A stretch of 30,983 nucleotides of DNA from a virus. Below the pieces are notes generated by a model. That model was given only the letters and a program-made list of their open reading frames with translations. It was not told the origin of the DNA and did no database searches. Positions 16,589 through 29,346 of the stretch are shown one piece after another. Made by a program: the position numbers and the translations under genes. Numbering within the stretch: the stretch's first letter is position 1; each line of letters begins with the position of its first letter. The stretch covers positions 1 through 30,983 of the IMG/VR virus record IMGVR_UViG_3300005663_000154; one strand, written 5' to 3'.

Positions 16589-17272
16589 TCACGCACCCAT
16601 ATAAGGAGGCGTACCCTGTTGTGATTGCAGCAGTTTCATGTACTTCTGATTTTGCCAGTAGTTTAACCCGGTACCCAGGGCAGAAGTGAGCGCATTCGCT
16701 GTACCAACGTACCCGGATGCACGAGCGTTGGCAGCCCCGGTGATTGCCTCAGTGGCTCCCTGAGTATATCGACCAGTGGCTGCACCTATTCTGCCTACCG
16801 AAGTTTGACCAACCCCCGCCAGACTTTGAAGCGGTTGTAACCGTGCTTCACGATTGGACTGATAACGATTAAAGGCATTGGTGTACTCACCACTGGCATA
16901 CTCTTGTCCATATCGAGTTGCTGCTTTAAGCGCACGACCTGAAACCAAATCACCCCTGACAGATGCTTGTCGATCCAGGGACTTCAGTCCTTCTTTAAGT
17001 CGAAACTGGTATCCAGGTTCCTGCTCAAGATCGGCGCCGGTAAACTCACCGGTAAACTCACCGCCAGGTTCCAGGCCAGCAGTAATTCGTGCCAGAGCAT
17101 TAACCCCGGCTTCTTGCCAAGGTGCCTCACGCTCCTTTTGCTCCTGGAACATCTGGTACTCAAGATCACCTGCCTTTTCTGCTGCTTTGGCTTGAGTCTT
17201 ACCTGCTTTCCCGGAGGCAACTGCTCCAATGACAGCAGTTCCTACAATAGCTCCTGCTACCCAAAAAGTCAT
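16589..17272 (-). CDS. P22 gp7-like DNA transfer/ejection protein
   Basis: The 227-residue protein matches P22 gp7 in length (229) and layout. It has an N-terminal Gly/Ala membrane-type helix (about 3-21), then a charged helix, then the characteristic Pro-Gly-Tyr-Gln-Phe-Arg-Leu-Lys-Glu-Gly segment. Gly-Arg-Ala-Leu-Lys-Ala and Tyr-x-Asn-Ala-Phe-Asn-Arg-Tyr follow. Families of this type are packaged in the virion and ejected first to help build the DNA channel. The start overlaps the cupin-like gene stop (ATG 17272, stop ending 17269). A Glu-Phe-Thr-Gly duplication is seen near residue 73. Confidence 0.8.
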   Translation of the reverse strand: MTFWVAGAIVGTAVIGAVASGKAGKTQAKAAEKAGDLEYQMFQEQKEREAPWQEAGVNALARITAGLEPGGEFTGEFTGADLEQEPGYQFRLKEGLKSLDRQASVRGDLVSGRALKAATRYGQEYASGEYTNAFNRYQSNREARLQPLQSLAGVGQTSVGRIGAATGRYTQGATEAITGAANARASGYVGTANALTSALGTGLNYWQNQKYMKLLQSQQGTPPYMGA

Positions 17273-17724
17273 GGTGTCACCTCAATTGACTGTTTCTTAG
17301 CCACATTGCCTAATTCGAACATACTATTGGGGTCATCTTCAACTAATTCATTCTCAGCGTCTTCGATAGTCAGTGAGTCCGTGCGATGGAATGTCATGCA
17401 CAGCGCGTCTGTAACCGCGTACACGGCACGTTTGGTGCCAGGCTTACTAGATATCAACTTGGGACCGGTGATCTCCTGTACCCCATCGTCCGTGGTGATC
17501 GCCACGGTTCCTGAGACAATCAGGTAGAAGTGCTCTTTCTTGTGAACCTTGCCGATCACCAGGACCCCTGCTGGCCGGAATACTTCTCGACAGTACATGC
17601 CAGCATGAAACGTGTGAGTGGTCTCCGGTTCGAACTGAGGCATCTTGGACACCTCGACCTGAAGCGCATTGACCTGATCGATCATGGGCACCTGGGAGTT
17701 TGGTTGTTCGATTTTTTTATGCAT
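17269..17724 (-). CDS. cupin-fold phage protein
   Basis: The 151-residue protein has a cupin core. There is Tyr-Cys-Arg-Glu-Val-Phe-Arg-Pro-Ala-Gly, Leu-Val-Ile-Gly-Lys-Val-His-Lys-Lys-Glu-His, Val-Ser-Gly-Thr-Val-Ala-Ile, and later Pro-Gly-Thr-Lys-Arg. The His-x3-Glu-His arrangement could bind a metal. Similar single-cupin proteins occur next to ejection genes in other short-tailed phages. The position equals P22 gp14, whose role is poorly known. The start is ATG 17724; ATG 17685 is an alternative because the upstream ribosome site is distant. A capsid accessory or assembly role is only inferred. Confidence 0.7.
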   Translation of the reverse strand: MHKKIEQPNSQVPMIDQVNALQVEVSKMPQFEPETTHTFHAGMYCREVFRPAGVLVIGKVHKKEHFYLIVSGTVAITTDDGVQEITGPKLISSKPGTKRAVYAVTDALCMTFHRTDSLTIEDAENELVEDDPNSMFELGNVAKKQSIEVTP

Positions 17725-17729
17725 AAAAG

Positions 17730-17918
17730 TCAGGTGTCCTTGTTGTCCTGGTCCCCTTGATTCTCTGGGTCTCTGCGCTGGTCATCTAGCTGCTGAATGC
17801 AGGCTGTGAGTTTGGCGCAGAGCATAGCACTTGCCCTGGCTTGCGCTGTAAATACTCTTGTTTTTTCTTCCATCATTGCTAACAGATTTTCATAGTCTGA
17901 CTTGCTTAGTAAATTCAT
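17730..17918 (-). CDS. small helical hypothetical protein (62 aa)
   Basis: The 62-residue product starts at ATG 17918, with TAGGAG overlapping the stop of the tail-fibre gene. It is predicted as one long amphipathic helix (about 5-46) with two Cys, followed by a very polar tail rich in Asp, Gln and Arg. It could be a tail-fibre chaperone or an assembly partner given its position, but there is no motif to support that. Its stop lies five bases before the cupin gene start. Confidence 0.5.
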   Translation of the reverse strand: MNLLSKSDYENLLAMMEEKTRVFTAQARASAMLCAKLTACIQQLDDQRRDPENQGDQDNKDT

Positions 17919-17919
17919 A

Positions 17920-20427
17920 TTATGCTCCTAGCGCACCATGTACTAAAAAGGCATCAATTAATGCGTGAACATGTTGTGCAAGTACTTCAAGTGTTACTGT
18001 TGAAGTAGCAAAACCGGTTCTAGTTTGTGTTCCAGTTGGCGAAGTCCAACCTGTATCTCTATTTCTTATTACCTGAGTTCCATCTACAAAGTAAGCGTCA
18101 GTAGTATTTATTGAACTTACAGCAACTTTTCCACTTCCAGCTATACGAAGTAATCTAAGATCTCCAGTGCCGTTATCTATATTAATGCCCCATTCCTCTC
18201 CTGCTCCATTAACTAGTCGTGTATGATTAGAACTACCATTATATATCCGTGCAGTCTCACTAATTATAGCGTCTCGTGCTGCTAGTGCTGTTGTTGCATT
18301 TGATCCAATTGCTATCGGAGTGAATGCAAATTTATTGAACAATCCTCGCGTGTCGTGATAATAAAGACTTGCACCTGTATTAATAGTCGGGTTCGGAGCA
18401 TTATTGTCCTTGTCAAGCTGCCAAAAAATATTGTCATGTGAAGCAACCGTTGCCTCCGGCGTTCCTTCCGCAACGAAAGGCCCGACATAACCGATACTAA
18501 AGAAATAATTGTGTCTTGCCGTTAATGCATTGACCGAGCCAGCACGAAGGATCCCAGCTTCACCGGCGCCCCTTGCTGCTCTAAAGATCCGAGTGAGTTG
18601 AAACGTATTGTTATCAGTCGGGCCAACATCAAGACCGATACCGTTGAAGTGTTTGAACGATAGGTTCTCGAACCAGTTAAAACTCGTGTTCGCGATAGAG
18701 TCCCCACCGAGGCGCAAACAGGCTCCTGCTTCCCTAAAGTGCTCCCATTGAATGTTTCTAATTTGATTGTGTTGGCAATCTCTTGCCTCACCCAAGGTAG
18801 CCACTACACTCATTTCAAAACCGGCATCGGTGAAGTCGAGAAAACCAAGATCAGAATATTCACAGTAACTGGTAGATACGACATCCAAGCCGATTGCTGC
18901 ACTGGTATCAGCTACTCCGCTCGCTAGATTCACATCGGTAGTTACAATCGTTGTTGTTGAAGACACTACGACAAATCCGTTAGGACCCGTACCACGAATA
19001 GCAGCACTGATGGTTACTACTGCCCCACTGGAATTAGCGTAATAGTTCGGAGAGGAAGTAAACGCATTGATGTTTGTAGCAACGTTTGTTGCGGTTACAG
19101 TTAGACTCGTATCGAAGGCTTCCGCGCCACTCATGATCTGAATGCTATTGACTGTTATACCATCAACACTACCACCTCCACCACTATCCAGTGTCACGGT
19201 GCCATTCGAATGAGTTGGGGCATTGGCGTCGAACTTTATTTTCTTAACACCACAGGCTCTCAGCGATTGGTTTCCGCCACCAGAGACAGCCGTCACTTGA
19301 AGTATTGTCCCGCCAGCAGACCCGGTCCATTTCAATCCAGTAGTAGCAGGCTCGCCTCCAAGGTCATGAAATCCGCCTGCTGGTGCGCCACCTTCAATTA
19401 TTACACCTCGACTATTTACTACCAATCCTGTCGCAATAGCATAGGTTGACGCTGGTAGAAATACTGTACCTCCCCCTGCGGCTTCAACAAAATCAATAGC
19501 TGCCTGTATCGCTGTGGAATCATCGGTTGAGCCATCGCCTACTGCACCAAACGATATAACATTGAACTTACCTGGAAACGATCCAATACCTAATGTCAAA
19601 TCAATATTGTCATCGGGCATCGTGAGCACCCGTACCGTGCTATTCGAGATAGCGCCCACATCGATGCGCATCTCTTTATTGGTACCGAATGTCACCAGCG
19701 AGGTCGAATCGGGTACAGGCAATGCCGCGGCCACATTGGCTGTATCGGTTACATCTGCGTTGGTCTCTATGCCGTCCAGCTTGCTGCCGTCCACCGACAG
19801 ATCCCGACCATCCACTGTCTGAGTGCTGAGCATGGTGATGTTACCGGTCATCTGTCCGCCGCCCCTGGATAGAGCGGCAGCTGCTAAGGTGCCCTCTGCC
19901 TCAGTAGCAAATGATCCTGTGCCTGGCGTGAGATCAATGTCCGCGTCCGCCATGGTAATCGTGCGTGTATTACCTGCAGTGATACCACTAGCATCTACAT
20001 CAATCTCCTTTGTCGGGTCAGCGACGTTCTGTATGGCGAAGACGTTATCGGGGAATATGGTCAATGCAGCCCCGGCACCTCCGGCGACATGGCTTGGAAA
20101 GAATCCCGTAAGATCTATATTCTCTACCAAGGTTAGCTGGCCACCTCCAGCTGCTAAGTATCTATAGACAAGCTTGGCAATCAAGAAGCCTGAACCTCTA
20201 TATGCTGCAGGGATTGTATAGGTACCAAACTTGGAGCCATCAGTAATGGCAGCTGCATCGCTGTTATAGAAGTCGCCAGGAAGATTCACAAACACCTTGC
20301 AATCTCCCGCGTCCTGAGACACCACTCCCCACACTACCCAGATAATACGATCATTGTTGGACGCGGCGTTTCCTGAGCTGTCCACCCGGAAATTATAGAG
20401 ATCCTTTCCTGCTGTGTACGCTGTACT
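17920..20427 (-). CDS. tail fibre/tailspike, C-terminal part (split by frame change)
   Basis: This open frame continues the protein of 20426-21091 in the +1 frame and lacks its own credible start; the first available start codon in frame is a TTG far inside the upstream gene. The 835 residues begin with a fibre-type domain (Trp-Val-Val-Trp-Gly-Val-Val...Asp-Cys-Lys-Val-Phe-Val-Asn-Leu-Pro). Two copies of a fibre repeat follow (Lys-Glu-Ile-Asp-Val...Arg-Thr-Ile-Thr-Met...Asp-Ile-Asp-Leu-Thr). Next comes a pectate-lyase-type beta-helix start (Phe-Gly-Ala-Val-Gly-Asp-Gly-Ser-Thr-Asp-Asp-Ser-Thr-Ala-Ile-Gln). A long beta-helical region and a distinct C-terminal cap follow. It likely recognises or degrades surface polysaccharide. 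It may be made by frameshifting, or be broken. Confidence 0.7.
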   Translation of the reverse strand, partial: STAYTAGKDLYNFRVDSSGNAASNNDRIIWVVWGVVSQDAGDCKVFVNLPGDFYNSDAAAITDGSKFGTYTIPAAYRGSGFLIAKLVYRYLAAGGGQLTLVENIDLTGFFPSHVAGGAGAALTIFPDNVFAIQNVADPTKEIDVDASGITAGNTRTITMADADIDLTPGTGSFATEAEGTLAAAALSRGGGQMTGNITMLSTQTVDGRDLSVDGSKLDGIETNADVTDTANVAAALPVPDSTSLVTFGTNKEMRIDVGAISNSTVRVLTMPDDNIDLTLGIGSFPGKFNVISFGAVGDGSTDDSTAIQAAIDFVEAAGGGTVFLPASTYAIATGLVVNSRGVIIEGGAPAGGFHDLGGEPATTGLKWTGSAGGTILQVTAVSGGGNQSLRACGVKKIKFDANAPTHSNGTVTLDSGGGGSVDGITVNSIQIMSGAEAFDTSLTVTATNVATNINAFTSSPNYYANSSGAVVTISAAIRGTGPNGFVVVSSTTTIVTTDVNLASGVADTSAAIGLDVVSTSYCEYSDLGFLDFTDAGFEMSVVATLGEARDCQHNQIRNIQWEHFREAGACLRLGGDSIANTSFNWFENLSFKHFNGIGLDVGPTDNNTFQLTRIFRAARGAGEAGILRAGSVNALTARHNYFFSIGYVGPFVAEGTPEATVASHDNIFWQLDKDNNAPNPTINTGASLYYHDTRGLFNKFAFTPIAIGSNATTALAARDAIISETARIYNGSSNHTRLVNGAGEEWGINIDNGTGDLRLLRIAGSGKVAVSSINTTDAYFVDGTQVIRNRDTGWTSPTGTQTRTGFATSTVTLEVLAQHVHALIDAFLVHGALGA

Positions 20428-21091
20428 ATGATTCGGTGAAGAACGTGGTGAGATTAGTTGTGCCACCGCCCGAGCTGTCGAAAGCCGGAAAATCGTGTAG
20501 ATGCAACTGCAAGACTTCGCCGGCAGCCACTGCAATCGTTAGTGCGTCGGGTGAGGGACCTGTATCAAGCGTTGGTGTGCATAGTGTGCCATCCGACCAT
20601 GTTGCTGGCTGCGCACGAATCCACTCATTCATTTCCTGTAGATGCCCATCTTCTGTCGTATCATTCCAGATATGATCAGTGTGTAGATGTGTCTTAAACG
20701 TCCCATATGTAGCTACGCGAGCGGCACTTGGGATAAGAAACTCGCCGATTGGAATAAACTCTTCTGTAGTAGGAAAGCCTGATGTTGACTTGGTTAGAAC
20801 TGCAGGAGTAGCCTTTCGGATGTAGACGAAATTGATCTGGGGCGAGATGTCAGAGCCGAGCGTGAGGGCAATAGTCTTAGCCCCGACGAGGATGATAGGC
20901 CCAGCATCAAATAGCATTGTTACATTGCCACCGCCGTCCTGTTCAACCGTGAGCGTGACTACTCCTGCTGCGCTCGTAACAACAGCAGAGAGGGTCTCGA
21001 CAGTAAGCCCTATATAGAAATTATAGGCGGTACTTACAATCGAACCTACAAGATTCGGTAGCTGGACGAGAGGAAGCTGGTTATGCAGCAT
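20426..21091 (-). CDS. tail fibre, N-terminal part (split by frame change)
   Basis: The 221-residue product starts at ATG 21091, overlapping the end of the previous gene. It is beta-rich and has a His-rich Leu-His-Thr-Asp-His-Ile-Trp-Asn-Asp-Thr segment (about 138-147). It ends in Leu-His-Leu-His-Asp-Phe-Pro-Ala-Phe-Asp-Ser-Ser, then stops at TAG 20428-20426. In fibre proteins I know of this type, that segment runs on into the Trp-Gly-Val-Val domain that is present here in the next frame. A one-base change or frameshift near 20428 would give a 1056-residue protein. The N-terminal part probably attaches to the tail hub built by the gp4- and gp10-like proteins. Confidence 0.7.
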   Translation of the reverse strand: MLHNQLPLVQLPNLVGSIVSTAYNFYIGLTVETLSAVVTSAAGVVTLTVEQDGGGNVTMLFDAGPIILVGAKTIALTLGSDISPQINFVYIRKATPAVLTKSTSGFPTTEEFIPIGEFLIPSAARVATYGTFKTHLHTDHIWNDTTEDGHLQEMNEWIRAQPATWSDGTLCTPTLDTGPSPDALTIAVAAGEVLQLHLHDFPAFDSSGGGTTNLTTFFTES

Positions 21092-21447
21092 TAGGCAATC
21101 CTGTTCACATAGCCAGTAATATTGATGGCCGATGCCGCGTCACTGAAAGCCTTAACAAGCAACCCTCCATTCAGCATCTGTCCAGTTGCTATCGGCATAG
21201 GCGGACTGTTGGCTTGAATAGGCAGTGCCTTAACCAGAAGGTTGCCGGGATCTGACACCCCTCCCCACTCGATTGTCAGCAACACGGGTTGTCCTGTAAC
21301 ATTCGTAGCCCAGAGATAAATCTCCTCGAAGTCCGTGGCACTATCGACTGCAGTATGAATTGCCGTTCCTGGCGTAGCAGTTTGAACTACAATTATCGGC
21401 GTACCACTTGTCGATTCGCTCAACAAAAATCTGGTAAAATTTGCCAT
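21091..21447 (-). CDS. conserved phage structural-region protein (118 aa)
   Basis: The 118-residue beta-rich protein starts two bases after the stop of the 56-residue gene. Motifs Gly-Asn-Leu-Leu-Val-Lys-Ala-Leu-Pro-Ile...Ser-Pro-Pro-Met-Pro-Ile and the ending Ile-Thr-Gly-Tyr-Val-Asn-Arg-Ile are ones I recall in hypothetical proteins between gp10-like genes and tail fibres of short-tailed phages. It fits a tail hub, adaptor or trimeric decoration protein, but its role is not established. Its stop overlaps the fibre start. Confidence 0.65.
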   Translation of the reverse strand: MANFTRFLLSESTSGTPIIVVQTATPGTAIHTAVDSATDFEEIYLWATNVTGQPVLLTIEWGGVSDPGNLLVKALPIQANSPPMPIATGQMLNGGLLVKAFSDAASAINITGYVNRIA

Positions 21448-21449
21448 AA

Positions 21450-21620
21450 TTATGGTCCGAAAACTTGGTTCCGTAAAATAGATTGATCACCAACATCCTG
21501 ACCGCTCCCAGTCGAATGGAACAAGCTCAAAAAGAACCGATACCATTCACGAGAAATCAGCCCAGTACGAGGATCATTAAACGGAACCCGAGGTGGTACG
21601 ATATTGGTAATATCAGCCAT
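21450..21620 (-). CDS. small conserved tail-region protein (56 aa)
   Basis: The 56-residue ORF from ATG 21620 overlaps the end of the gp10-like gene by 8 bp and ends two bases before the next ATG. Its start, Met-Ala-Asp-Ile-Thr-Asn-Ile-Val-Pro-Pro-Arg-Val-Pro-Phe, then Asp-Pro-Arg-Thr-Gly-Leu-Ile-Ser-Arg-Glu-Trp-Tyr-Arg-Phe-Phe, is a pattern I recognise in short proteins at this locus in many phages. The Pro-rich head and aromatic core suggest a structural peptide that docks on the tail. Function unproven. Confidence 0.7.
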   Translation of the reverse strand: MADITNIVPPRVPFNDPRTGLISREWYRFFLSLFHSTGSGQDVGDQSILRNQVFGP

Positions 21621-23046
21621 CGGTTTCACTCGCGCTCAATTCTGCACCCATTATCGCAATCTTTATTGGATCGGTACCTGATATCTCATACACCCGATCA
21701 CGAAGTTTCGTTGTCATACCCAACCGACGCCAAAATGTGCGATGCTTAAATTCACCAAGCGCCCCCATTGACTTCCAATGTTCATTTGACCAGTTGTGCC
21801 CACCATCATCCGACCACCGAAGCATTACTTGTGGATCACTACCTTGGCCAGTCACTAACCCGACACCTGTTTCATAATCCAATTGAACGCTATGATGTGC
21901 CTTACGCTTGAGATCATTTGCGCCTGGTGGCAATGCTCTCCAGGATCTCAACCATTTTTGAATATCGCCATTGTCAGCATAGACATCTAAATCAAAAGCG
22001 TAAATGTTACCATTGTCCGCGTCACCTACAATGATCTCATTATTGAATGCCATTTGACAATTGCTTTGGTGCCGAGTAAATACGCCTCCTCTAAAGCCCG
22101 CTCGTTCATGCCATGCTTCAGTAGAAACATCGTACACCCAGGTTGCATCGGCTGATGGAAAAATCAGCACATAAAACGAATGTCCATCTTGCTGGTAGGT
22201 ATAGCCTATAGTGCCACTAAGATCACCATATTGTTGGATCTGCCATTCAACCGCGTGAGTCGAAATACGCTCCCCTGAATAACCACTTGAACGATAAACA
22301 ATTCCCTGTCCTCTATCGTCCGCGCCCAACCAAAATAACCCGTTATCCATCTTGACAATTGAGTATGCGGCAGCACACCCAAATTCAATGTACACACCTT
22401 GTATCGGTGCAAGAGGAAAATCAGTTAATCCGGCATTATAGTAAACTTCAATACTGTTAGAACCAAAAAACCATGCCTCTTGATGATCAACAAATAACCC
22501 AACTAGCTTATCAGGAGAACCCGCGATACCTGAAAAATCAAGTGGGTCAACAGAGGTGCCATCGAGTAAAGTAGTCACCCATGCTATCTGACTGTTGGGT
22601 TGATTGAACACAAAGAACCCATCAAGGTAACCAACAGTTACGGCACCAGCAAAATCAGAATCCGTGATTTGAGCAAACACAGCAGTGGAAGCATTGTAAA
22701 TATAACTAGGGCCATTACAGGCAACAAATAATTGAGTTCCGTTATCTGCCATACTTACAGAAATAGGTGAACCGGAGATGGTACCTAACAATGTCGCTGT
22801 ATACCCGGTATCGATACTGTAAAGTTCATTCCCACTAGCAACATACCCTATGCCACCAAAAGTAGAAAGTTCACGAATAGGGCCACTACCTACAGTAGCA
22901 AGTAATCGAAGTCCAGGAGCACGATTTAAAAAAGCAGGTTCCTTACCACCTTCAGGCACAATCTCTGGAAACAAATTAACCATGCGATTATTTGCAGCAT
23001 TGATACTGCGAGTCACATAAGTCGAGCCGAGAATCGGCGTCTTCAT
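21613..23046 (-). CDS. P22 gp10-like packaged-DNA stabilisation (tail hub) protein
   Basis: The 477-residue protein matches P22 gp10 in length (472), order and character. It opens with Pro-Ile-Leu-Gly-Ser-Thr-Tyr...Arg-Ser-Ile-Asn-Ala-Ala-Asn-Asn-Arg-Met-Val-Asn-Leu-Phe-Pro-Glu. A long series of propeller-like strands follows (Gly-Tyr-Val-Ala-Ser-Gly, Leu-Phe-Val-Ala-Cys-Asn-Gly). A Gly-Ser-Asn-Ser-Ile-Glu-Val-Tyr-Tyr-Asn-Ala-Gly motif and a C-terminal Trp-Ser-Asp-Asp-Gly-Gly-His-Asn-Trp-Ser are also present. In P22 a hexameric gp10 hub sits under gp4, plugs the portal exit after packaging and carries the spikes and needle. Start and stop overlap both neighbours. Confidence 0.85.
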   Translation of the reverse strand: MKTPILGSTYVTRSINAANNRMVNLFPEIVPEGGKEPAFLNRAPGLRLLATVGSGPIRELSTFGGIGYVASGNELYSIDTGYTATLLGTISGSPISVSMADNGTQLFVACNGPSYIYNASTAVFAQITDSDFAGAVTVGYLDGFFVFNQPNSQIAWVTTLLDGTSVDPLDFSGIAGSPDKLVGLFVDHQEAWFFGSNSIEVYYNAGLTDFPLAPIQGVYIEFGCAAAYSIVKMDNGLFWLGADDRGQGIVYRSSGYSGERISTHAVEWQIQQYGDLSGTIGYTYQQDGHSFYVLIFPSADATWVYDVSTEAWHERAGFRGGVFTRHQSNCQMAFNNEIIVGDADNGNIYAFDLDVYADNGDIQKWLRSWRALPPGANDLKRKAHHSVQLDYETGVGLVTGQGSDPQVMLRWSDDGGHNWSNEHWKSMGALGEFKHRTFWRRLGMTTKLRDRVYEISGTDPIKIAIMGAELSASETDG

Positions 23047-25525: not shown

Positions 25526-26734
25526 CTAGCCCCATAAACGAGTAGCCATTTCAGGCCGAATCGTATTAAACCCATATAAGACATCCACGCGACATGGCAT
25601 CCGGTCATTGTTGATATCGTACTGGCGCACAATCCTCATACTGATTCCGTTGTGAACTGCACGAGCGGCCATATCCACGCCCTGTGGCAGAAGCAGATCA
25701 GCGGTCACAAAAGCAATCGCATCCTTATGATAGATCAGATTCTGCGGATACAGAGTCGCAGACGACCCCATTGGGGTGATTACAGCTGATGTCTGCGGAA
25801 ATGCGTCAATCGTCGCTAGGGCATTTCCTGCCGTATACATAGCCGGTGAAATCGACAGAGTTACACTGGTAGTTGATATCCAGCTTGCATCTGCGGTTAC
25901 GGTAAACTGCTGCAAAGAACCCGTGCTCTCACGAGTCTGAGGATTAACAGCGTTTACACTCGCAATCGTGAACACATCACCTTCATTAAAAGTACCGGTG
26001 CCACTACTGAAAGTAATCGGCAGTGTCGTTTGTCCCTGCGTTGTGATCGTTGCGGCATTGATCGGAGATGTTGGTAGCGTGCCGACCGTATGCTGCTTGA
26101 TCGACTGGGACATATTGATCTCGTCATATCCCAGAACACCCACTCCCATCATGCCATTTTTAAACTGATTGGAAATAGTACCAGTGGGATTGAAGAGACC
26201 CTTCAGTCCTTCAACCAGTCCAGCATTACCAGCCGGATTCACGGTCGCATAACGCGGGTTCATCATTGCAGCCATTTCATTCAACTTCTGTTGACCCTGT
26301 AACAGAACCAAGGAAGTCCCTGGAGTCGTACCAGGTGTGCCTACGGACTGATAAATATTCTTGTAGACATTGGCAAGGTCAGCATCGACGCTGGACGCCA
26401 GCTGACTGATACGCGGCTTCAGGATACGATCAGCAAAGTCATCCAACTCCAGTGCCAATTCAGCAGAAGTGAAATTAATGCCGACATGCTTCTGGGTTGC
26501 GACCGCAAGAGTCGTGTTCTGCTCGTTTTCATCCTGAACCTGAAGCGCAGCCCCATCGGTAACCAGGGTACGATCAGGCAAACGAATCCGAAGTGTTGAG
26601 CCAATTTTGGCCCCTTCGACAGCGTAACTATCATCATACTGCCGATTGACATTTCGACAGAGCACCAAATTGTTCTCAAGAATCTCAAGAGCCTTCCTGG
26701 TGATCATATCAATGGTTAAAATGCTATTCGCCAT
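25526..26734 (-). CDS. major capsid protein, P22 gp5-like coat family
   Basis: The 402-residue protein builds the icosahedral shell. Its start (Ala-Asn-Ser-Ile-Leu-Thr-Ile...Ala-Leu-Glu-Ile-Leu-Glu-Asn-Asn-Leu) and Asp-Asp-Ser-Tyr-Ala-Val-Glu-Gly-Ala-Lys-Ile-Gly are family hallmarks. So are Ile-Asn-Phe-Thr-Ser-Ala-Glu-Leu-Ala-Leu, the Asn-Met-Ser-Gln-Ser-Ile segment and the ending Asp-Val-Leu-Tyr-Gly-Phe-Asn-Thr-Ile-Arg-Pro-Glu-Met-Ala. Residues about 230-315 match the immunoglobulin-like insertion (I-) domain that P22 coat adds to the HK97 fold. P22 coat has 430 residues. A strong AAGGATT site precedes ATG 26734, 23 bases after the scaffold gene. Confidence 0.9.
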   Translation of the reverse strand: MANSILTIDMITRKALEILENNLVLCRNVNRQYDDSYAVEGAKIGSTLRIRLPDRTLVTDGAALQVQDENEQNTTLAVATQKHVGINFTSAELALELDDFADRILKPRISQLASSVDADLANVYKNIYQSVGTPGTTPGTSLVLLQGQQKLNEMAAMMNPRYATVNPAGNAGLVEGLKGLFNPTGTISNQFKNGMMGVGVLGYDEINMSQSIKQHTVGTLPTSPINAATITTQGQTTLPITFSSGTGTFNEGDVFTIASVNAVNPQTRESTGSLQQFTVTADASWISTTSVTLSISPAMYTAGNALATIDAFPQTSAVITPMGSSATLYPQNLIYHKDAIAFVTADLLLPQGVDMAARAVHNGISMRIVRQYDINNDRMPCRVDVLYGFNTIRPEMATRLWG

Positions 26735-26757
26735 GAGATAAATCCTTCAAGAAAAAG

Positions 26758-27552
26758 TTAGAGGTTCTGCTCCTCCAGCTTCTTTCTCTGACGTTTCCTG
26801 TCGGCCTCAATCCACTCCGAAGTGCTCATTGAATCAATTGATCGTGGATCAGTTGTGTCGTAAACCGGAGTTGAAGAGGAGCCAGGTTTCACCGGAGCAA
26901 TAGGCGGCGGTGCAGACGTTGTACGTTTCTGCGGAGGATCGGCGACCAATGCGGCCTCAATCTTCCCAATTTCTCGCGCTTGCGAAAGCGGTGGCAGACG
27001 GGAAATACGAGCTGCTTCCTTTAGATTGGTACCCAAGTGATAAGCAATCTCAGGTCCAATTTCGGAAAAACGGATTGTCTGAGCCATTGCCTCAGTGACT
27101 GGTAACTTCGGATTATATGCAACTTGTTCAAAGTCGTCATACTTCTCCCGAATCACTTCCTCACGTTCATTATAGGCTTCATCAATCTCTGCCTGCTGCG
27201 TCTGAGCTTCCCTTTCCTGTACCAGTTTATCAGCCTTATGCTCTACCACTGCTTCAGTATGTTCTTCAGGCGTGTCAAACTGATCTGCCGATGGGACTTC
27301 TGTAGGTGCAGATCGTACCTGCACTTTCTTAGCAGCCTGCTCTCGTTCCCACTGTCGCCTTCCTCTCGCAAGACGCTTACCAACAACAGCATCAAGTTCC
27401 TCCTGAGTAAAGGTTTTAACTTCATCAGGGATTACTTCAGTTCCTACCTCTGCTGGCGTTTCGACCGGTGTTGTTTCCACTTCGGTTGCAGGAACGACCG
27501 TTGTTTCCTGATCCGGCGCGGCTGGTGTTTCCGCTGGTTGAATTTCACTCAT
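26758..27552 (-). CDS. scaffolding protein, P22 gp8-like
   Basis: The 264-residue protein is directly before the coat gene, as gp8 is in P22 (303 residues). Residues 1-45 are acidic and disordered, rich in Glu, Thr, Pro and Val. Then comes Phe-Thr-Gln-Glu-Glu-Leu-Asp-Ala-Val-Val-Gly-Lys-Arg-Leu-Ala-Arg, a signature of phage scaffolds. A long charged coiled coil spans about 60-165. The C-terminus is Lys/Arg-rich (about 245-264), like the coat-binding helix-turn-helix of P22 scaffold. It directs procapsid assembly and leaves before packaging. A promoter-like sequence and two inverted repeats precede it. Confidence 0.8.
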   Translation of the reverse strand: MSEIQPAETPAAPDQETTVVPATEVETTPVETPAEVGTEVIPDEVKTFTQEELDAVVGKRLARGRRQWEREQAAKKVQVRSAPTEVPSADQFDTPEEHTEAVVEHKADKLVQEREAQTQQAEIDEAYNEREEVIREKYDDFEQVAYNPKLPVTEAMAQTIRFSEIGPEIAYHLGTNLKEAARISRLPPLSQAREIGKIEAALVADPPQKRTTSAPPPIAPVKPGSSSTPVYDTTDPRSIDSMSTSEWIEADRKRQRKKLEEQNL

Positions 27553-27663: not shown

Positions 27664-29346
27664 TTAATACTTCCCTATCCGTATCAATAACTCAACCGAT
27701 GCAGTCACACTGCCTGACGTGCCATTGAAAAATCCAACCTCAATCTCATTTGCAACCCCGGTAACGCTTTTCAATTTAGTCAATGTCAATCCCTGCAGGT
27801 CCAGTGGTGTGAAATCCAAGATCTGAGAACTGCCGTCCGACAAGGGGCTGTAGACAAACCACGTCACACTAGCTTGTGACGCTAAACCTGATACAGCAAA
27901 ACTGCATTTCATGGTATTGCTCGTTACCGGAGTGCCACTGTTAAAACTCGCTCGATTGTTAGATGTAGCTTGAGCAGCAATCAGTCCGCTCCCGCTCGGA
28001 CCACCTTGATTCAAACCGAAATCAATTTTGTTGTTGATACCTGTAAATAGAAACTGACCGTAACTAGCCATGTTTTCTGCAAAATGCAGGAACCAGCGAA
28101 CATTGTTCAGAGTCGCTGCTGACTCAATATATTTAGCAGAGGCATGAAAGCCACCAAACCAGTCCAATACATTCCAGGTTATTCTCGACAGATCTGAATC
28201 ACTGTCATTGACCAAACCACGAGCCGTAGTCAGTGCAACGCTGGGATCGATTGCGCTGAATGTAAAGGTGTTACTGTCCCAGTTCGGTGTCAATCCAGAG
28301 CCACTGAATCTGACCGTGGCTATGTTAACCGATGAGAAGTTGCAATAGATCTGGTTGCCTTGCATAACATTACCGTTAGCATCGGCGCTCATCACAATAG
28401 CATTGTCTGAATCGTTGATAGCCTGAACCTTTACATTGTTATCCAGACAGGTTGCATGAGTCGCAGAGACGGTCTCTAAGACTAATGCTCTGGTACACCG
28501 TGCAATGGTGTCAAGTTCCAGTGTGAGCAATGACGCGCCCTCTAATAACACGCCATCGGAGAAGTCTGAGACACGACCCAGATGGATAGGCGTTAGATGG
28601 TTGGCACTGGCAAAAGTAAATCCGGTGCCGGACCCCTCGCCTGCACCTTCAAATCCTGCACCACTGGCATCAAATGATCCATTGCTCCCGCCGAATGTAA
28701 CACCGCCGCCCGTCATGCGGTAATTACCAGATGAAGCAGGTACTCTGACATTTTGACCCGAATTGATAGCTCGTTGAATTGGTATTGAGTCATCCGTTGA
28801 CCCATTTCCCAGTGCGCCCATTTGTTTAGGGGTCACAAAAGCCTCAGCAATAACAAATTCTTTTCCGTCTAAATCATAAAACTTACCAGTTAAATGCGGC
28901 CAGCTCCCAGCCTTCGCTAGAGTAGTCGTTCCGGTATAGGACAACACAGATCCAGATTCGGGAGTCCGGTTACCATCCAGATAGTTGGTCCTGATCAGAT
29001 GACCAGTGATGATACTGGAATGACTCGCTGCGGCAGCATCACTGCCCTTTTCATAAGCAGAGGTGTTAACTACCTGGTTGGCGTTGACATTATCAACAGT
29101 CCATACCGCACCATCTGTCGATGTCGTCAACACATACTTATAAGGCAGGGGATCAAGCCATATGTCTGCTTCCCCAAGTGAACCCAGGATTATGGGATTT
29201 GTGTTAGCGGTATCTCGTGTTGAATCAGTATAAGTCGTTAATTTCGTAACGGTGCCAGCGATATAAGTAGTCAGTTTTCCACCAACTACTGGATCACCAT
29301 TACCATCAAGAAATTGCAACTTTGGTGCAGGTGAGAGAGTTACCAT
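27664..29346 (-). CDS. tailspike-like protein with beta-helix
   Basis: The 560-residue protein begins with a tail-attachment domain seen in many tailspikes. This is Pro-Ala-Pro-Lys-Leu-Gln-Phe-Leu-Asp-Gly-Asn-Gly-Asp-Pro-Val-Val-Gly-Gly-Lys-Leu, then Thr-Tyr-x-Ala-Gly-Thr, then Ile-Ile-Leu-Gly-Ser-Leu-Gly-Glu-Ala-Asp-Ile-Trp-Leu. At about residues 171-192, Lys-Gln-Met-Gly-Ala-Leu-Gly-Asn-Gly-Ser-Thr-Asp-Asp-Ser opens a pectate-lyase-like right-handed beta-helix. About 480-560 form a beta-sandwich-like end. It should bind or degrade host surface polysaccharide. Unusually it lies before the scaffold gene rather than after the ejection genes. Catalytic residues cannot be assigned by eye. Confidence 0.8.
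   Translation of the reverse strand: MVTLSPAPKLQFLDGNGDPVVGGKLTTYIAGTVTKLTTYTDSTRDTANTNPIILGSLGEADIWLDPLPYKYVLTTSTDGAVWTVDNVNANQVVNTSAYEKGSDAAAASHSSIITGHLIRTNYLDGNRTPESGSVLSYTGTTTLAKAGSWPHLTGKFYDLDGKEFVIAEAFVTPKQMGALGNGSTDDSIPIQRAINSGQNVRVPASSGNYRMTGGGVTFGGSNGSFDASGAGFEGAGEGSGTGFTFASANHLTPIHLGRVSDFSDGVLLEGASLLTLELDTIARCTRALVLETVSATHATCLDNNVKVQAINDSDNAIVMSADANGNVMQGNQIYCNFSSVNIATVRFSGSGLTPNWDSNTFTFSAIDPSVALTTARGLVNDSDSDLSRITWNVLDWFGGFHASAKYIESAATLNNVRWFLHFAENMASYGQFLFTGINNKIDFGLNQGGPSGSGLIAAQATSNNRASFNSGTPVTSNTMKCSFAVSGLASQASVTWFVYSPLSDGSSQILDFTPLDLQGLTLTKLKSVTGVANEIEVGFFNGTSGSVTASVELLIRIGKY

Follow-up and report, generated by a model that had tools for sequence, protein, structure and literature searches.

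The minus strand of IMG/VR virus record IMGVR_UViG_3300005663_000154, analyzed here over 30,983 bases (the window), carries a tail-fibre or tail-spike gene whose coding sequence is divided between two reading frames, and the question is whether this arrangement reflects (i) two adjacent genes, (ii) one gene expressed by recoding or switched by phase variation, or (iii) one gene interrupted by a mutation or by an error in the consensus. The record agrees with the first-pass annotation on the basic geometry: the frame 21091-20426 closes at its TAG inside a fibre domain, the peptides WVVWGVV and VFVNLP are encoded in the +1 frame, the two frames overlap by about 110 bases (more than 100 had been claimed), and the joined reading yields the 1056 residues given there (221 + 835). 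The N-terminal part is homologous to the first part of a fibre domain found in 23 other IMG/VR contigs, and the C-terminal part to the second part of that domain. The stop-to-stop frame containing the C-terminal part (20538-17923; 872 codons) is the longest in the window; its first in-frame ATG lies at 19953, 475 bases beyond the TAG, in keeping with the annotation's remark that no ATG occurs for hundreds of bases, and the GTG and TTG codons nearest the junction have no well-spaced ribosome-binding site.

Features of the split fibre gene and its surroundings (positions in the window)
Feature	Position	Strand	Remarks
N-terminal part of the fibre/spike gene	20426..21091	minus	221 codons; ATG start; TAG stop at 20428-20426
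C-terminal part of the same gene	17920..20427	minus	Open for 835 codons in the +1 frame; no plausible start of its own
Frame-change interval, in a variable linker of the domain	20428..20479	minus	Profile score 363.9-366.6 bits within, lower on both sides
Fibre domain broken by the frame change; no Pfam model	19906..21052	minus	Alignments A1 and A2
Start of pectate-lyase-like beta-helix (PF12708), as in tail spikes	19396..19566	minus	E 3.8e-10
Variable adhesin slot, gp10-like gene to short-tail-fibre-like gene	17725..21612	minus	Length varies among relatives

Homologues were collected from IMG/VR by protein-pattern scans, first using the two halves separately and then a small alignment, and this search recovered the 23 other contigs that bear the domain. 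One of them (L102), truncated by the end of its contig, was left out, leaving 22 informative homologues that carry both halves. All 22 have one uninterrupted open reading frame across the junction: 21 in the standard code, including the near-identical pair L105 and L107, and one (L104) in a 598-codon frame that is open over both halves only when TGA is translated as glycine (code 25). Against a profile of 19 intact homologues, the joined reading scored 366 bits and the N- and C-terminal parts 203 and 159 bits, respectively; the higher joined score indicates that the two reading frames once formed a single tail-fibre or spike gene. The annotation's central claim, that a +1 change within the domain divides one fibre gene, is thus upheld, both by the homologues and by the comparison of the joined protein with them that it had proposed. 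Two tandem genes, the second with its own start, might be read from two long frames overlapping as these do; however, every informative homologue is one gene, which is the opposite of the naturally separate genes that the annotation had named as grounds for abandoning its claim, and the late ATG and the bare GTG and TTG codons leave the second frame without the start and ribosome-binding site that translational coupling would call for. We consider this reading close to negligible. The split is confirmed as a real feature of the record, beyond chance, because the same homologous proteins are matched by the two halves, one after the other, and because it is the only genuine frame change among those window genes that have relatives.

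The position of the frame change is less sharply defined than its existence. When the switch was moved through the overlap, the homology profile gave a flat optimum from 20479 to 20428, all of it within about 3 bits. This stretch encodes a linker, between the motifs PAF and TAY, that varies in the alignment; the window's linker exceeds that of its relatives by 3-5 residues. By codon usage the position at the stop was best, but a broad stretch lay within a few bits of it, and so weak a preference does not by itself locate the switch. The annotation had placed the switch near 20428, at TCA-T-AGT; that site is possible, but it is not pinned, since the whole of 20479-20428 is equally good by homology. 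Homology also told against the slippery-looking TTT-C (20491) as the switch point, which scored 355 versus 366 bits and was discarded. The event is a net change of 3n+1 bases that need not be a single base and, given the longer linker, may be larger.

Programmed +1 frameshifting near the UAG, yielding a short and a long fibre, was the first of the annotation's candidate explanations, and a downstream frame that is intact and has no start of its own is what such a mechanism would leave, as is a codon capable of re-pairing within the overlap. That codon is the TTT-C at 20491, the only one of 38 overlap codons at which full +1 re-pairing is available. A switch there, however, falls 11 bits under the homology optimum, and the codon that follows TTT is not rare: CCG occurs at 13.4 per 1000, more often than the shifted codon CGG (10.2 per 1000), whereas PRFect requires the reverse, a shifted codon commoner than the codon after the slip site (PMC10885494). 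At the stop itself, UCA in the P-site pairs with CAU at 0/3 positions, which bears out the annotation's own reservation about poor re-pairing. For the UAG to serve as a slow A-site codon, a slippery P-site codon would be needed as well. Neither kind of stimulator was found: there is no Shine-Dalgarno (SD)-like sequence 5' of UCA-UAG and no stable RNA fold around or downstream of the site (z +1.1 and +0.7 relative to shuffles), and the window yielded no matches when scanned for Rfam families and tRNAs. In the +1 shift of prfB, the elements are an SD-like sequence, CUU UGA, and a following C (PMC13245932); the present site resembles that system in having a +1 change adjoining an in-frame stop, and differs in having UCA rather than CUU, UAG rather than UGA, no SD-like stimulator, and no conservation, as none of the 22 homologues shares the break.

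The structure predicted for the domain also argues against a purposeful short product. In an AlphaFold2 model made from a homologue (mean pLDDT 77, a moderate confidence, with the last 60 residues unreliable), the junction falls in a loop that precedes a strand, and because this position lies inside the better-predicted part, a 221-residue product would end within the predicted folded domain and would lack roughly its last third. Taken over all of this evidence, programmed frameshifting is very unlikely. Some cases of forward recoding have no recognized motif (PMC10885494), and a motif-free +1 recoding private to this lineage, by which one gene would give both a truncated fibre of 221 residues and a spike of 1056, keeps some room because identity to the homologues in the domain does not go above about 50%; this version, too, we rate as very improbable.

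The surroundings of the gene bear on the remaining alternatives. The structural genes on the minus strand resemble those of a P22-like podophage and include those for a scaffold, a major capsid protein, a gp4-like adaptor, a gp10-like head-closure protein (PHROG 578), a short-tail-fibre-like protein, and DNA-ejection proteins. By its gp10-like protein the closest isolate is Phage DSL-LC05 (72% identity), in which the structural gene order is the same. The split fibre gene sits in a variable adhesin slot that is about 3.9 kb long in the window, ranges from 745 to 5669 bases in 60 relatives (from L005-L084 and L108), and is occupied by different genes in Phage DSL-LC05; it is a length-variable, replaceable adhesin cassette. 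That the gene is an adhesin in a variable slot speaks for phase variation, which the annotation had also suggested for this receptor-binding gene and which could proceed by slippage at repeats or by inversion. The junction, however, contains no homopolymer, tandem repeat, or inverted repeat, and hence no tract on which such switching could act; we regard phase variation as extremely unlikely. A homopolymer or repeat suited to transcriptional slippage is likewise absent at the junction.

We conclude that, in the linker at 20479-20428, the spike gene of this P22-like podophage has very probably been hit by a singleton net 3n+1 indel, or that the consensus contains an equivalent error there. The homologues are continuous across the break, no other case was found among them, and because no relative shares the frame change, an ordinary one-off indel is most likely, rather than a novel mechanism for producing two fibre proteins. 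For the sequence as it stands, translation would end after 221 residues, in mid-domain, and the spike-like remainder would not be made. The lesion is recent or artefactual, as the 835 codons beyond the break contain no further stop and their first part retains homology. The mutation and the assembly error that the annotation had listed as candidates both survive as branches of the singleton-indel explanation.

Of these two branches, we slightly favor, as a matter of judgement, a sequencing or assembly error in the consensus of this metagenomic contig, in which case the gene would be intact in the phage. The break is a singleton bridged by intact homologues, the rest of the frame is undamaged, it is the one such break in the window, and a comparable break exists in a related contig; on the other side, the site has no error-prone homopolymer or repeat. 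Antonov et al. (2013, PMC3711429) expect that an unclustered frame break bridged by homologues stems from a sequencing error and not from a genuine indel. The present case resembles the singleton frame-disrupted genes of that survey in its single occurrence, its continuous homologues, and its want of a recoding motif, and differs in that the survey covered complete prokaryotic genomes, whereas ours is a metagenomic phage contig without reads. The other branch, a real and recent inactivating indel in the spike gene, we judge to be a serious possibility at somewhat less than an even chance. The phage, or a subpopulation of it, would then make the truncated 221-residue product and either rely on other adhesins or have lost a host. 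Such a loss could be survivable, because the slot is a replaceable cassette, filled by other genes in the close relative DSL-LC05, and because other candidate adhesins are encoded at 27664-29346 and 17269-17724. Yet so long a downstream frame free of a second lesion means that the indel would have to be very recent, and a DNA pattern that spanned the junction and allowed a gap of variable length found no second contig with the break in IMG/VR, from which near-identical records may have been withheld.

Among the relatives, one comparable frame break was found in 337 gene-locus pairs (314 kb aligned, 80 related contigs), in the capsid gene of L056. At 1 per 314 kb, an estimate based on that single event, the chance of a break in a 31-kb record is about 1/10, and one such break in a scan of many windows is unremarkable. 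The L056 case (L056:3-1014) is a homologue of the major capsid gene with an adjacent frame change, and is possibly another contig error. Elsewhere in the window, apparent frame changes at 21489-21742 and 26519-27042 were rejected as plus-strand reading frames that run antisense to minus-strand genes and cross gene boundaries.

The consequences of the frame break are mainly for annotation: gene callers will list a short fibre plus a spike that lacks its head, and a naive reader would take the pair for recoding. A real indel would mean that the record catches a single instance of spike loss, in a phage whose adhesin cassette is replaceable. Of more lasting value is the fibre domain, which is present in the window and in 23 other IMG/VR contigs (L085-L107), and for which there is no Pfam model, one member's weak DUF match apart. 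No homologue was found among GenBank phages, whether searched with DNA, with both protein halves, or with a consensus-like domain query, or among GTDB genome contigs. The match of the domain to PHROGs is weak and partial, and its matches in a viral library are long proteins, mostly of uncultured phages and mostly without described function. In a fold search of the PDB nothing reached E 0.001; the top hit was a cyanophage tail fibre (E 0.0024). The domain is recognizable by the motifs SPQINFVY, QPATW, LQLH, VNDxxTPY, VVWGVVSEDxGDCK, and NLP, and it represents an undescribed fibre-domain family.

Downstream of the domain, the protein has the character of a tail spike. The PF12708 match exceeds its cut-off (40.4 versus 27 bits) and covers 57 residues, the beta-helix start only; the C-terminal part also matches the tail-spike families PHROG 7458 and PHROG 2234. 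In these respects the C-terminal part is like the pectate-lyase-fold tail spikes of podophages; the N-terminal part differs from them in being a domain that has no Pfam model and inside which the frame is interrupted. In L104 (L104:2-1402; IMGVR_UViG_3300033153_009453), the homologous fibre gene has in-frame TGA codons at conserved glycine positions, which suggests that this contig comes from a Gracilibacteria/Absconditabacteria phage sharing the fibre domain with standard-code phages.
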